Shown here: one piece after another, positions 28,328 to 34,097 of the stretch | Layout: each line of letters starts with the position of its first letter | Numbering within the stretch: position 1 is the stretch's first letter | Assembly: GCA_021846325.1 (NCBI GenBank) | Contig: JAJZBX010000001.1 | Span: 1 to 64,000, forward strand | Origin: Actinomycetes bacterium | GTDB lineage: Bacteria > Actinomycetota > Acidimicrobiia > Acidimicrobiales > RAAP-2 | Length of the DNA: 64,000 bases | Direction of reading: 5' to 3' | The notes under the pieces: generated by a model | What the model saw: only the letters and a program-made list of their open reading frames with translations | Databases searched by the model: none | What the model was told of the DNA's origin: nothing | Program-made: the position numbers and the translations under genes

Positions 28328-28786
28328 GTGCAGATTCCCGCGAAGGCCGAGTACGCCATTCGGGCCCTCCTAACCCTGGCCGCGAGTTCGACCTCGGTGA
28401 GTGCCGAACACCTAGCGGCCGAGCAGGGGCTGCCGGCGAAGTTTCTCGGGGCGATTCTCTCGGATCTGCGCCGGGGCGGACTGGTGACCAGCCAGCGCGG
28501 TCCCGAAGGCGGGTTCCGTCTGGCGCGCGACGCCGAGACGATCATGATTGCCGACATCTTGCGCGTGGTCAGTGGCCCGATGGCCGGCGTACGCGGTATG
28601 CGACCAGAGACACTCAACTACGGCGGCGAAGCCACACACCTGCGCGACGTGTGGGTGGCGGTGCGCGCCGCCCTGCGCGAAGTGCTCGAACACGTCACGT
28701 TGGCTCAAGTGTTGCGTGGCGACCTGCCACCGGCGGTCACTCGATTCACGAGTGACACCGACGCGTGGATCACCAGAAAACTGTGA
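28328..28786 (+). CDS. Rrf2-family transcriptional regulator without cysteines
   Basis: The 152-aa protein has the family start MQIPAKAEYAIRALLTLA, a winged helix (EHLAAEQGLPAKFLGAILSD), LRRGGLVTSQRGPEGGFRLA as wing, and the IADILRVVSGPMAGVRG dimer helix. IscR, NsrR and RsrR hold Fe-S clusters by conserved Cys. This protein has no Cys at all, so it cannot sense through Cys ligands. It might sense another signal. It is coupled to rnhA by a GTGA overlap and lies 3 kb from the suf genes, so regulation of suf by it is only a guess. Confidence 0.85.
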   Translation: MQIPAKAEYAIRALLTLAASSTSVSAEHLAAEQGLPAKFLGAILSDLRRGGLVTSQRGPEGGFRLARDAETIMIADILRVVSGPMAGVRGMRPETLNYGGEATHLRDVWVAVRAALREVLEHVTLAQVLRGDLPPAVTRFTSDTDAWITRKL

Positions 28787-29300: not shown

Positions 29301-30716
29301 GTGGCGAACGAGGCCCACCAGTTTGATGTCGTGATCATTGGGGGTGGCCCGGGCGGCTACGCCGCCGCGCTCTACGGCGCCTCGGCGGGGTTGTCCGTCG
29401 CGCTCATCGAGCGAGACAAGGTCGGCGGTACGTGCCTGCATCGGGGATGCGTGCCGGCCAAGGAGTTTCTCGAGACTGCGCACGTACGTCGAACGATCGA
29501 GCACGCGAGCGCCTTCGGGATCGACATCGGCGCGGTAGCCGTTGATTTCTCGATAAGCCAGCGTCGCAAGAGCGAAGTGGTCGACAAGCTGCACAAGGGC
29601 CTGGCTGGTCTCCTGAAGGGGCGTAAGGTCACCGTATTCGAGGGCACCGCACGGCTCGACGCCGACCTGACGGTTCGGGTGGTCGACGGCGCGGACGCCG
29701 GCACCGAGGTGCGCGGGACCAACGTGATCCTGGCCGCGGGTTCGGTGCCGCGCACGCTGCCGGGCTTTGACCTGGACGGCACTATCGTGCTCACCTCCGA
29801 TGAATTCCTTGACCTTTCGACGCTGCCGACCAGTGCCGTCGTGATCGGTGGTGGCGCGATCGGCTGTGAATTCGCCTCGATGCTCGCTGACATGGGGACG
29901 AAGGTGACGGTGCTCGAGAGCCTGCCGACCATTCTCATGGGTTGCGACAGCGAAGTCGTGAGCGTCGTGCAGCGCAGTTTCAAGAAGCGCGGCATCGACG
30001 TGCGCGCCGGGGTCACGGTTACTGGGCACTCGCCGAAGAAACGTACGACCACCGTGCACGTTGATGGTGGTGAGGACGTGGCCGTGGACGTGATCGTTCT
30101 CGCCGTCGGGCGCCGGCCCCGAAGTGAGGGGCTGCTCGGCGAGGGCACCGGCGTTGAGGTCAACGAACGTGGCTTCGTGGTGGCCGACGCGGCGATGCGC
30201 ACCGCCAATCCGCACGTTTTCGCCGTGGGTGACATCGTCGCCAATACCCCGCAACTGGCCCACGTTGGTTTCGCCGAGGCGATCGTAGCCATCAAGACCA
30301 TTCTCGGCGAACCGGCGATTCCGGTGGATTACGACCGCGTGCCGTGGGCTATTTACTCAAACCCCGAGGTGGCCTTCGTCGGCCTGACCGAGGCCGCGGC
30401 GAAGGAACGTGGCTACGAGGTGATCGTCAAGAAGGACCCCTTCGGCGGCAACAGTCGGGCCCAAATCATTGGTGACACTGACGGCGTGGTCAAAGTCATC
30501 GCGGAGAAGCGTCCCGACGGGACCGCGGGCCAGATACTCGGTGTGCACATGGCGGGTCCTTGGGTCACCGAACAGTTGGGCGCGGCCTACTACGCCGTGA
30601 ATTGGGAGGCGACCGCCGAGGAAGCCGCGGCCCTGATCCAACCGCACCCCTCGCTGTCGGAAACCTTCGGTGAAACGCTACTCGCGCTGGCCGGCCGGGG
30701 GCTGCACGTTGGCTGA
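29301..30716 (+). CDS. lpdA: Dihydrolipoyl dehydrogenase (E3)
   Basis: The 471-aa flavoenzyme reoxidises dihydrolipoamide of 2-oxoacid dehydrogenase or glycine cleavage complexes with NAD+. It has the FAD motif VVIIGGGPGGYAAALYGASA, the redox disulfide Cys45/Cys50 in GGTCLHRGCVPAKEF, the NAD motif VVIGGGAIGCEFASMLADMG, TANPHVFAVGDIV, and the C-terminal His-Glu pair in IQPHPSLSETFGE. AAGGGA precedes the GTG start. It leads an operon with an E2 subunit and the LipB-LipA protein; the stop overlaps the E2 start. Confidence 0.93.
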   Translation: MANEAHQFDVVIIGGGPGGYAAALYGASAGLSVALIERDKVGGTCLHRGCVPAKEFLETAHVRRTIEHASAFGIDIGAVAVDFSISQRRKSEVVDKLHKGLAGLLKGRKVTVFEGTARLDADLTVRVVDGADAGTEVRGTNVILAAGSVPRTLPGFDLDGTIVLTSDEFLDLSTLPTSAVVIGGGAIGCEFASMLADMGTKVTVLESLPTILMGCDSEVVSVVQRSFKKRGIDVRAGVTVTGHSPKKRTTTVHVDGGEDVAVDVIVLAVGRRPRSEGLLGEGTGVEVNERGFVVADAAMRTANPHVFAVGDIVANTPQLAHVGFAEAIVAIKTILGEPAIPVDYDRVPWAIYSNPEVAFVGLTEAAAKERGYEVIVKKDPFGGNSRAQIIGDTDGVVKVIAEKRPDGTAGQILGVHMAGPWVTEQLGAAYYAVNWEATAEEAAALIQPHPSLSETFGETLLALAGRGLHVG

Positions 30717-31920
30717 CGTGACCCTCCCGTCGCTCGGCGAGTCGGTGACCGAAGGGATCATCACCCGCTGGTTCAAGCAGGTGGGGGACGTCGTGGCTCG
30801 CGACGAACCGCTCTTTGAGGTGTCAACCGACAAAGTTGACTCCGAGATGCCCTCGCCCGCCGCCGGCGTGTTGATCGCCATTCTGGCGGGGGAGGGTGAC
30901 ACCGTCGAGACGGGCTCACGCGTCGCGGTCATTGACGAGGCAGCCGGTACCGGTTCAGGGTCGACGCCGGCCGCTCGCCCAACGCCCGAAGCGTTCGTAG
31001 CACCCGCGCCAGCACCCGCGCCAGCGCCACCCGCGGCGTCCCCGTTGCCGCCGGTGGCGCCACCGGCCCCGCCGTCGCCGGCGGGCGTCGTGATGTCGCC
31101 CGTGGTTCGTCGAATTCTCGCCGACGGGGGCGTTGAGCCGGGAACCGTGCGCGGGTCGGGACCGGGCGGCGCCATCACCCGACGTGACGCGGAACGCGCG
31201 GTGATGAATGGCCCGACTGACGACATTGTCGTCCCGCTGTCCAATGGGCTACGCCGCATGGGTCAGCACATGACGCTCTCCACGCAAAGCACGCCGCACG
31301 GTTACGTCGCGGTCGAGGTCGACGCCTCGATCATTGATCGGTTGGACACGCTCGGTCGAGTGACTCGTGACGGCGTGCCAATCTCCGACGAGGTCGTGGT
31401 GGGACTGGCGGCGGTTCGAGCGTTGGGCGAGTTCGAGTTTCTCAACGCCACGTTCGCCGGTGATGAGCTCGTGGTGCACCGGACGGTCAACCTTGGCTTC
31501 ATGCGCGAAGTGCATCGCGACGGGATGCTCGTGCCGGTTGTGCACGCCGCGGCTGGACTGACCCTTCGGGCGCTCGCTCGACGGGCGCACGAGTTGCAAG
31601 ATCGTGTGGCGACCCGCCAGTTGACGGCCGACGACCTGATGGGTGGGACGTTCACACTGGTGGGCCCGACGGGACCGAATGCGCTCTGGTCCCAGCCGAT
31701 CATCATCCAGCCCCAAGTCGCGGTGTTGTCGATGGGCAGCGTTCGTCGGGCCGCGGTGGTGGTCGACGACCCCGAGCGTGGTCCCACGGTGTCGGTTGGC
31801 CGACGCGTCATCCTCGGACTGTCGTTCGATCACCGAGTCTGTGAGCCGTTTAGCGCCACCAACTACCTCGAACGAGTCGCGGAGCTGCTCGCCGGTCTTG
31901 ACCTCGAGAGCGAGCACTGA
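30709..31920 (+). CDS. 2-oxoacid dehydrogenase E2 acyltransferase with altered active-site motif
   Basis: The ~403-aa protein has a lipoyl domain (MADVTLPSLGESVTEG; lipoylated Lys42 in STDKVDSEM), an Ala/Pro linker (APAPAPAPAPP), an E1/E3-binding domain (SPVVRRILADGGVEPGTVRG) and an acyltransferase domain. The catalytic His-x3-Asp-Gly motif near the end, normally DHRxxDG, reads DHRVCEP (H375, E379, P380): Asp is Glu and Gly is Pro. His is kept, but activity may be changed. The TTG start gives the usual N-terminus; a GTG 9 nt later is possible. No E1 gene lies nearby, so whether the complex uses pyruvate, 2-oxoglutarate or branched-chain acids is open. Confidence 0.85.
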   Translation: MADVTLPSLGESVTEGIITRWFKQVGDVVARDEPLFEVSTDKVDSEMPSPAAGVLIAILAGEGDTVETGSRVAVIDEAAGTGSGSTPAARPTPEAFVAPAPAPAPAPPAASPLPPVAPPAPPSPAGVVMSPVVRRILADGGVEPGTVRGSGPGGAITRRDAERAVMNGPTDDIVVPLSNGLRRMGQHMTLSTQSTPHGYVAVEVDASIIDRLDTLGRVTRDGVPISDEVVVGLAAVRALGEFEFLNATFAGDELVVHRTVNLGFMREVHRDGMLVPVVHAAAGLTLRALARRAHELQDRVATRQLTADDLMGGTFTLVGPTGPNALWSQPIIIQPQVAVLSMGSVRRAAVVVDDPERGPTVSVGRRVILGLSFDHRVCEPFSATNYLERVAELLAGLDLESEH

Positions 31921-33546
31921 GTGCTGCGTCGTCGCCACCTGGGTCGCGTCACCTTCCGCGAGGCCAATGACTTCCAGCGAGCAATTCTCGACGCACGCGA
32001 TGACTACGTCTTGGTCTTCGAGCATCCCCCCACCTACACGATGGGCATCCGGACCCAGCCCGAGCACTTCTTGGTGCCCCCGCAGACCCTTGATGCGGAC
32101 GTTGTTGTCGCCGATCGAGGCGGTGACGTTACGTATCACGGCCCCGGACAGGTGGTCGCGTGGGCGGTGGTAAGCGTCGCGGACGATCCATCGGCTGGGC
32201 GAGCACACGTGCGACGACTCGAGGAAGCGGTGATCGCTACGGCCACGCACTTCGATCCGACGGGCGCACTCGGTCGAGTAGGTCGCCTGGAGGGCTATCC
32301 GGGCGTCTGGGCCAACCTCGATGACGAGCCGGCGAAGATCGCCGCGGTCGGCGTGCGCACCGAACGCAATCGAGCCGGGCAACGTCGCACGCTGCACGGC
32401 GTGGCGCTCAACGTCGATGTCGACCTGGCCGGATTCCGCGCCATCGTTCCGTGCGGCATCGCCGACAAGCCGGTCGCGTCGCTACGATCCCTGGGGGTGC
32501 GCGTCTCGTCGTCCGAGGCGGGGGACTTCCTGGGCGAGCAGCTCGATCGGATGTTGGGGGGACCGGGCTCGGTCGCCGCGGTCGATCGCGGTGGCGTTGG
32601 CTCGACGGGCGATCGCCCGCTGCTGCGTCGGCTGCGCCACGCCGGGGTTGATCCCGACGCCGGTGTCGACCTGCGCGCGCGCAAGCCATCGTGGCTGCGC
32701 GTCGAGGCGCACATGGGATCGCGCTACCAATCACTGCGACGGCTCACCGAGGACCTTCGGTTGGTGACCGTGTGTGAGGAGGCGGGCTGCCCCAACATCT
32801 ACGAGTGCTGGGCGTCGGGAACCGCGACCTTCATGGTCAACGGCGAGCGATGCACGCGCGCTTGCGGCTTCTGCCTCATCGATACGCGTAAACCCTTGGC
32901 GCTGGACCCGACCGAGCCCGATCGAGTCGCCGAAGCGGTGGTGCGGCTCGGGCTTCGCCACGCGGTGGTGACTTGCGTGGCGCGTGATGATCTTCGCGAC
33001 GGTGGCGCCGCCGCGATCGCCGCGACCGTGGTAGCTATTCGAGATCGCTCACCGGAAACCGCGGTGGAAGTGCTCATCAGCGATCTCAAGGGCGACGCCG
33101 CCTCGCTCCAACTGGTGCTCGACGTTCGACCCGACGTGGTGAACCACAATCTCGAGACGGTGGCCCGGCTCCAGCGAGCCGCTCGCCCCAGCGCCGGGTA
33201 CTTGCGATCGTTGACGGTGCTCGCGCGCGCGAGCGCGCAGGGTCTCACCACGAAGTCGGGACTGATGGTCGGACTCGGTGAGACGCCGGACGAAGTCGAA
33301 GAAGCCCTCGCCGACCTCGCGAGCGTCGGTGTAGCCATCGTGACGATCGGGCAGTACGTGCGCCCCAGCGCCGATCACCTGCCGGTGGCGCGGTGGTGGG
33401 ATCCCGCCGAGTTCGACGAACTCGCTCGGCGGGGCCGTCGGTTGGGGCTGGGACACGTCCAGTCCTCACCGCTGACGCGCTCGAGTTACCACGCCGGTGA
33501 GGCGCTCAGCGCGGCGACGCCGGTGGGCCTGCCGATTCGCCGTTAA
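31921..33546 (+). CDS. LipB-LipA fusion: octanoyltransferase plus lipoyl synthase in one ORF
   Basis: One uninterrupted 541-codon frame holds both steps of lipoate synthesis. Residues 1-~213 are LipB, moving octanoyl from ACP to target proteins: VFEHPPTYTMG, DRGGDVTYHGPGQ, Lys139 in AKIAAVGVR and Cys178 in VPCGIADKPV. Residues ~250-541 are LipA, the radical-SAM enzyme that inserts two sulfurs: auxiliary cluster C285-x4-C290-x5-C296, radical-SAM C311-x3-C315-x2-C318, and the final RSSYHA that supplies the Ser ligand. Between them is a ~36-residue linker without ATG, GTG or TTG. Only Met211/Leu212 could serve as an internal start, and no ribosome binding site precedes them. The GTG start follows the E2 stop directly. 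Confidence 0.93.
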   Translation: MLRRRHLGRVTFREANDFQRAILDARDDYVLVFEHPPTYTMGIRTQPEHFLVPPQTLDADVVVADRGGDVTYHGPGQVVAWAVVSVADDPSAGRAHVRRLEEAVIATATHFDPTGALGRVGRLEGYPGVWANLDDEPAKIAAVGVRTERNRAGQRRTLHGVALNVDVDLAGFRAIVPCGIADKPVASLRSLGVRVSSSEAGDFLGEQLDRMLGGPGSVAAVDRGGVGSTGDRPLLRRLRHAGVDPDAGVDLRARKPSWLRVEAHMGSRYQSLRRLTEDLRLVTVCEEAGCPNIYECWASGTATFMVNGERCTRACGFCLIDTRKPLALDPTEPDRVAEAVVRLGLRHAVVTCVARDDLRDGGAAAIAATVVAIRDRSPETAVEVLISDLKGDAASLQLVLDVRPDVVNHNLETVARLQRAARPSAGYLRSLTVLARASAQGLTTKSGLMVGLGETPDEVEEALADLASVGVAIVTIGQYVRPSADHLPVARWWDPAEFDELARRGRRLGLGHVQSSPLTRSSYHAGEALSAATPVGLPIRR

Positions 33547-33652: not shown

Positions 33653-33674
33653 GCTCTGATTGATTGGGGGGAGA

Positions 33675-34097
33675 ATGAAGCGAACGTGGATTCGCATTGC
33701 TGGACGCGTCAGCGCGCTCACCGTAGCGCTGGCGCTGGGGTTGGCTACGACAACCGTGACGCCGGCGGGGGCGGGTCAGCTCGTCTCGGCCAGTCCGAGC
33801 CCATTTTGCTCGACCCTCTTCTCCTTCCACCCCAAGGCGCCGGTGAACTCGAAGAACTGGTCGGCGTACCGCGCCTTCGCGAAGTCCGTACTGCCAACCT
33901 TTGAGAAGCTCGCCGCGACCGCGCCCAACGTCGGCACGAAGGAAGTGATGACCCAGCTGGTCGACTACTTGAAGTTCGACGTCTTCGCCAAGTCGCTGCC
34001 GAGTTACACCAAGTATTGGCAGACGCACCTGACGCACTGGGAGTACGACTGGCAGCAGTTTGTGGTGGCCGAAATGACGTGCGTCAAGCACCTCTGA
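33675..34097 (+). CDS. Small secreted protein of unknown function
   Basis: The ~140-aa product starts MKRTWIRIAGR, then has a signal peptide hydrophobic core (VSALTVALALGLATTTV) with a likely cleavage after AGA. The mature part of ~110 residues has two Cys (PFCSTLF near the start and EMTCVKHL at the end) that could form a disulfide. The helices between are rich in Trp/Tyr (SYTKYWQTHLTHWEYDWQQF). GGGGGGAG precedes the ATG. No family is recognised. A good promoter suggests strong expression. Confidence 0.72.
   Translation: MKRTWIRIAGRVSALTVALALGLATTTVTPAGAGQLVSASPSPFCSTLFSFHPKAPVNSKNWSAYRAFAKSVLPTFEKLAATAPNVGTKEVMTQLVDYLKFDVFAKSLPSYTKYWQTHLTHWEYDWQQFVVAEMTCVKHL

Follow-up and report, generated by a model that had tools for sequence, protein, structure and literature searches.

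A class-wide fusion of LipB and LipA in the Acidimicrobiia, presumably a bifunctional octanoyltransferase–lipoyl synthase

In their textbook form, the octanoyltransferase LipB and the lipoyl synthase LipA are separate proteins. In the window, by which we mean the whole stretch of 64,000 nucleotides analyzed here (positions 1 to 64,000 of contig JAJZBX010000001.1, assembly GCA_021846325.1), one reading frame, lipBA, appears to carry both. This raises the questions of whether the two enzymes are made as one polypeptide, how widely the joined form occurs, how it arose, and what it would do. The features concerned are the following.

29301..30716, plus strand: E3, dihydrolipoyl dehydrogenase (TIGR01350, 463.6 bits, cut-off 408.8).
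30670..31920, plus strand: 2-oxoacid dehydrogenase E2 that carries one lipoyl domain; its start codon is uncertain (Pfam Biotin_lipoyl at residues 16-88, E3_binding and 2-oxoacid_dh).
31921..33546, plus strand: lipBA fusion gene, 541 aa, from a GTG start directly next to the stop codon of E2 to a TAA stop.
31921..32565, plus strand: LipB (octanoyltransferase) domain, residues 1-215 (Pfam LplA-B_cat, TIGR00214, structural alignment).
32335..32337, plus strand: AAG codon of the LipB catalytic Lys139 (invariant in the 175 distinct fused proteins).
32452..32454, plus strand: TGC codon of the LipB catalytic Cys178 (likewise invariant in all 175).
32566..32610, plus strand: joint, residues 216-230, about 15 residues (limits from the structural alignment and model confidence).
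32611..33528, plus strand: LipA (lipoyl synthase) domain, including the N-terminal extension, residues 231-536 (TIGR00510, structural alignment).
32773..32808, plus strand: CX4CX5C motif of LipA (C285, C290 and C296, each C in 175 of 175).
32851..32874, plus strand: CX3CX2C motif of LipA (C311, C315 and C318, each C in 175 of 175).
33478..33489, plus strand: C-terminal RSSY of LipA, residues 520-523 (RSS in 175 of 175; the last position is Y in 161, H in 13 and F in 1).

In the ORF reading, 31921-33546 on the plus strand forms one frame, 541 codons long and uninterrupted by stops, and family models for both enzymes matched it. For the LipB part, Pfam LplA-B_cat spans residues 19-200 (94.4 bits, cut-off 27) and NCBIfam TIGR00214 (lipB) exceeds its cut-off (115.5 versus 83.55), and the LipB equivalog model NF010925 falls just under its own (145.9 versus 155). 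For the LipA part, Pfam LIAS_N spans residues 252-290 (27.2, cut-off 27), Radical_SAM spans residues 309-465 (55.2, cut-off 29.5), and TIGR00510 (lipA) is over its cut-off (327.8 versus 310.25). Both TIGR00510 and TIGR00214 match all 46 members of alignment A1 (E up to 0.001).

The hallmarks of LipA are two [4Fe-4S] cysteine motifs and an RSSY end; we take CX4CX5C to be the motif of the auxiliary cluster and CX3CX2C that of the radical-SAM cluster. The first-pass annotation had reported the motif sets of LipB and LipA within one frame, and K139, C178, the six cysteines and RSSY were all located there. The conservation counts given above derive from 190 fused rows, of which 178 were complete and aligned and 175 were distinct over residues 30-525; L187, whose 546-aa LipA frame opens with LipB and is therefore fused, is absent from the 190. 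K139 and C178 were equated by motif with K135 and C169 of Escherichia coli LipB, whose double mutant is inactive according to the relevant passages of PMC9307952.

The AlphaFold model of the fusion has a pTM of 0.90 and a mean pLDDT of 88.9. Its residues 1-215 align with M. tuberculosis LipB (1w66; Z 29.3, rmsd 1.9, 199 residues aligned), and its residues 231-536 align with M. tuberculosis LipA (5exk_C; Z 42.3, rmsd 2.2, 300 residues aligned), indicating that the N-terminal extension of LipA is kept in the fusion. The fusion is thus like the separate enzymes of M. tuberculosis in domains, folds and catalytic motifs, whereas in other Actinomycetota the two enzymes are separate and occupy two frames, against one here.

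The fusion was found in 139 of the 143 genomes of the window's class, the Acidimicrobiia, in which the DNA was read at the locus. Both motif sets lie in one frame in 138 of these 143, and in G015 a tblastn match places both enzymes in one frame. In G297, parts of both domains occur in frames at two contig ends, and a frame change interrupts the LipA part; in G307 the frame passes from LipB into the start of LipA, where the contig ends; and in G319 the contig with LipA has a frame that by eye opens like purD, and a LipB fragment lies at the end of another contig. G187, which is 85% complete, has a lone LipB in a 267-aa frame (locus L223) and no LipA over the cut-off, which may reflect a contaminant contig, a missing piece or a true loss. 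The fused loci span 37 families and 82 genera, and no split lipB/lipA was found among the intact loci of the class, G187 being the one unclear case. In-frame stops reported within some class matches had hinted at separate enzymes, but nine of these genes, read at the DNA level, proved to be open across both domains.

In the wider search, a match was obtained in 94 of 100 genomes of the family, 231 of 247 of the class and 321 of 396 of the phylum, the class matches beyond the 143 genomes being search rows only. A set of 80 contigs, the best 80 of 589 relatives, comprised 49 fused loci, 30 separate loci and one that was cut (L092); this set and the 143-genome set share some genomes. The fused records include Acidiferrimicrobium (L062), a member of the Acidimicrobiia that is not titled as a MAG, and the chromosome-titled L053; L068, also fused, carries the title Bifidobacterium breve and was taken as a mislabelled MAG.

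Outside the class, 39 genomes from elsewhere in the phylum were read, 20 chosen for a long LipA frame and 19 taken by hand from the ranking of the phylum search, and none of them has the fusion. In 22 of them the LipB match lies in another frame or past a stop, and in 17 the stretch contains no LipB match. All 30 separate loci of the 80-contig set have lipA after lipB on the same strand, in different open frames. Beyond the phylum, 210 plasmid records matched, and among the matches listed (30 of 210), seven were at least 80% covered, all seven in two pieces.

These distributions bear on whether the fusion is real and how it originated. An artefact of assembly or binning, that is, a missed stop or a frameshift error, might be entertained for the window, which is one contig of a 97-contig genome, but it is of negligible probability given the 138 other class genomes and the 49 contigs of relatives (overlapping sets) that carry the fusion, some in single-contig assemblies (e.g., G101, G126 and G245). 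Because the same fused protein occurs across the whole class, we regard it as an old, stable design and not a sequencing error. The proposal that LipB and LipA form one polypeptide is thus upheld by the open frame, the fused genes of relatives and the retention of both catalytic sets. A quick tree of LipA, restricted to the first 55 of 79 fused rows that were less than 72% identical to each other, places these 55 on one side of a branch with SH-aLRT 79 and the 49 separate rows on the other. The LipB tree, computed without the separate rows L085, L109, L112, L266, L269 and L270 and the long-branched fused row L173, needs two changes because the long-branched separate L278 falls among the fused rows, and a single clade of fused rows is not rejected (p-AU 0.376). 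From these sequence comparisons, one fusion event in an ancestor of the Acidimicrobiia is most likely. In such an event, a lipB-lipA gene pair would have lost its intervening stop, leaving the LipA N-terminal extension and a short, variable joint. Whether the joined state is of any use is a different matter, since co-expressed neighbours may have lost their stop once by accident, with no present selection for the fusion. That the joint differs in both length (12-74 aa) and sequence fits such a neutral origin, as does the finding that in 24 of the 30 separate pairs elsewhere in the phylum, drawn from a tblastn ranking that favours in-frame pairs, one stop is all that divides lipA from lipB in the frame they share; the lack of any split among the intact loci of so many families and genera speaks against it, as does the pTM of 0.90, which suggests that the domains are packed and not loosely strung. 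We consider the neutral account possible but somewhat doubtful.

A further alternative is that the one gene yields two proteins, either through a start at codon 211 or nearby that produces extra LipA or through cleavage of the joint after translation. The linker had been described as containing no ATG, GTG or TTG; this is correct for codons 213-264, but codon 211 is ATG and codon 212 is TTG, both at the extreme end of the LipB domain, and the next in-frame start codon after TTG 212 is ATG 265. An in-frame start codon occurs somewhere between residue positions 205 and 262 in every one of the 175 distinct fused genes, and SD-like motifs precede 155 of 695 linker starts (22%), versus 162 of 1438 (11%) in LipB and 378 of 2963 (13%) in LipA (178 rows). 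However, such motifs also precede 2183 of 11931 other linker codons (18%), and a stricter 5-base motif shows no excess (22 of 695 linker starts versus 400 of 11931 other linker codons). Nor are the start positions kept: the commonest is residue 259, the Met of a KPEWM motif (123 of 175), and besides it the commonest are 197, inside LipB (62 of 178), and 238 (52 of 175), so that across the 175 fused genes no internal start is conserved apart from the Met at residue 259. A stop or frameshift within codons 213-250 and a conserved internal start had been named beforehand as signs against a single polypeptide; both were sought in the fused relatives, and neither was found. That the one gene yields two proteins is accordingly quite improbable. 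The joint of the single polypeptide is variable in sequence among the relatives, the stretch aligned to residues 214-232 having a median length of 21 aa (175 distinct relatives), and in the model of the window's protein, residues 223-228 form the sole inner stretch with a confidence below 50.

The gene directly upstream encodes an E2 with a lipoyl domain (Pfam Biotin_lipoyl), which agrees with the first-pass annotation that lipBA sits right behind an E2 gene. Its Lys55 (30832-30834, in a DKV motif) is presumably the lipoylation target, and the E2 is likely a substrate of the fusion. An E2 lies directly upstream of lipBA in 39 of the 49 fused loci in the 80-contig set, 36 of them identified by script and three (L052, L054 and L058) by inspection of the locus. 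Of the remaining ten loci, L044 and L072 begin at a contig edge and L051 has its E2 on the opposite strand. No E2 match precedes lipBA in the last seven (L059-L061 and L064-L067), two of which are Microthrix contigs, but all seven have an E3. This E3 immediately precedes lipBA in L059-L061, L066 and L067, whereas in L064 and L065 it lies about 2.4 kb upstream.

At 31918-31923 of the window, the E2 stop and the lipBA start abut in frame (TGA GTG) with zero bases between them, so that a single frame, interrupted by one stop, runs through E2, LipB and LipA. The same abutment is seen in 23 of 31 close relatives including the window (L009-L034, L039-L042 and L070), and the variation of the E2 stop among TGA, TAG and TAA argues for coupled translation and against read-through. 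An Rrf2-type (iron-dependent) regulator at 28328-28786 heads a same-strand run of Rrf2, RNase H, E3, E2 and lipBA, and it could tie lipoylation to iron-sulfur status. Downstream, a 145-aa frame at 33660-34097 has, by eye, a signal-peptide-like start and no Pfam or NCBIfam match.

By family models, the window's genome contains one LipA and one LipB, and GcvH is also single. Beyond the window, a 279-aa frame (G000:C51:176353-177192; L137:1276-2115) matches LplA-B_cat at about 23 bits against a cut-off of 27 and has no NCBIfam match; judged from its sequence, it is possibly a divergent lipoate or biotin ligase. Since the fusion is the sole LipA and the sole LipB of the genome, E2 and GcvH must both depend on it, unless this weak LplA-like match is a ligase. 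With no other LipB or LipA detected by the family models, the fusion would be the route of de novo lipoylation.

These results show that the fusion is real and class-wide; it is presumably a bifunctional enzyme. We consider it highly probable, from the sequences compared here, that the lipBA product is a bifunctional octanoyltransferase–lipoyl synthase descended from a single fusion event in the class ancestor. The LipB domain would load octanoate from the acyl carrier protein via Cys178, aided by Lys139, and would transfer it to the lysine of a lipoyl domain, that of the adjacent-gene E2 or of GcvH, after which the C-terminal radical-SAM LipA domain would add two sulfurs at C6 and C8. Tethering would keep the octanoylated domain close to LipA and set a 1:1 ratio of the two activities, both of which we infer. 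Octanoyl transfer followed by sulfur insertion is the general order of the reactions in the passages of PMC9307952 that describe them.

The model also bears on whether the lipoyl domain might pass from one active site to the other. For domains of about 215 and 305 residues, a pTM of 0.90 points to a defined arrangement; it implies that the predicted LipB-LipA interface is confidently placed and that the two domains are fixed relative to each other. For a freely moving two-domain chain, a pTM nearer 0.6 would be expected by our own estimate. A control fold based on 23 in-frame pairs of separate lipB and lipA genes, in which Gly was put in place of the intervening stop, gave a pTM of 0.51 and a mean pLDDT of 74.6, a comparison confounded by domains that are themselves worse than in the fusion model and by fewer, less varied sequences. 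In the mutual-information analysis, 33 of the top 100 pairs were inter-domain, versus 47% by chance, and several of the top inter-domain pairs join LipB residues 121-138 with residues 246-254; these pairs may reflect shared ancestry.

The predicted fixed arrangement is compatible with substrate hand-over, and the passage of a protein-bound octanoyl group from LipB to LipA is an attractive idea. The fuller proposal, of a two-site machine in which a lipoyl domain octanoylated by LipB would be handed to LipA before leaving, and which would be the sole de novo lipoylation route throughout the class, seems rather unlikely. LipA consumes its own auxiliary cluster at each turnover, and a 1:1 tether alone would therefore not make LipA fast.

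Among known systems, the E. coli LipB and LipA reportedly form a noncovalent complex bound to the 2-oxoacid dehydrogenases (Hassan and Cronan are said to have described it in 2011); the same two enzymes are joined at the substrate in both cases, noncovalently there and covalently in the fusion. NF053790, LplA_LipA_fuse (bifunctional lipoate--protein ligase/lipoyl synthase), resembles the fusion in that, by its name, a lipoyl-attaching enzyme precedes LipA, but that enzyme is, again by name, the ligase LplA, where the present fusion has LipB. The fusion scores 339.2 bits with this model against a cut-off of 800, through the LipA part only (profile positions 330-605 of 606). UniProt and InterPro contain entries of the LipB-LipA architecture. 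No paper on a LipB-LipA fusion was found among the matches listed in open-licence PMC, as judged from titles and the starts of abstracts. The passages of PMC10332631 on fusion or fused proteins are general or concern LplA and LplB, and the terms lipo, LipA and LipB are absent from the main text of a fusion survey (PMC4921024).

Overall, what is new is the joined, class-wide architecture; the enzymes themselves are known. When the two enzymes are separate, it is difficult to follow a lipoyl domain from its octanoylation to the insertion of sulfur; a natural fusion found throughout a class offers one protein of 541 residues for structural and kinetic work. In addition, lipBA provides a gene-architecture marker that is common to the Acidimicrobiia and absent from the other actinobacterial genomes read.
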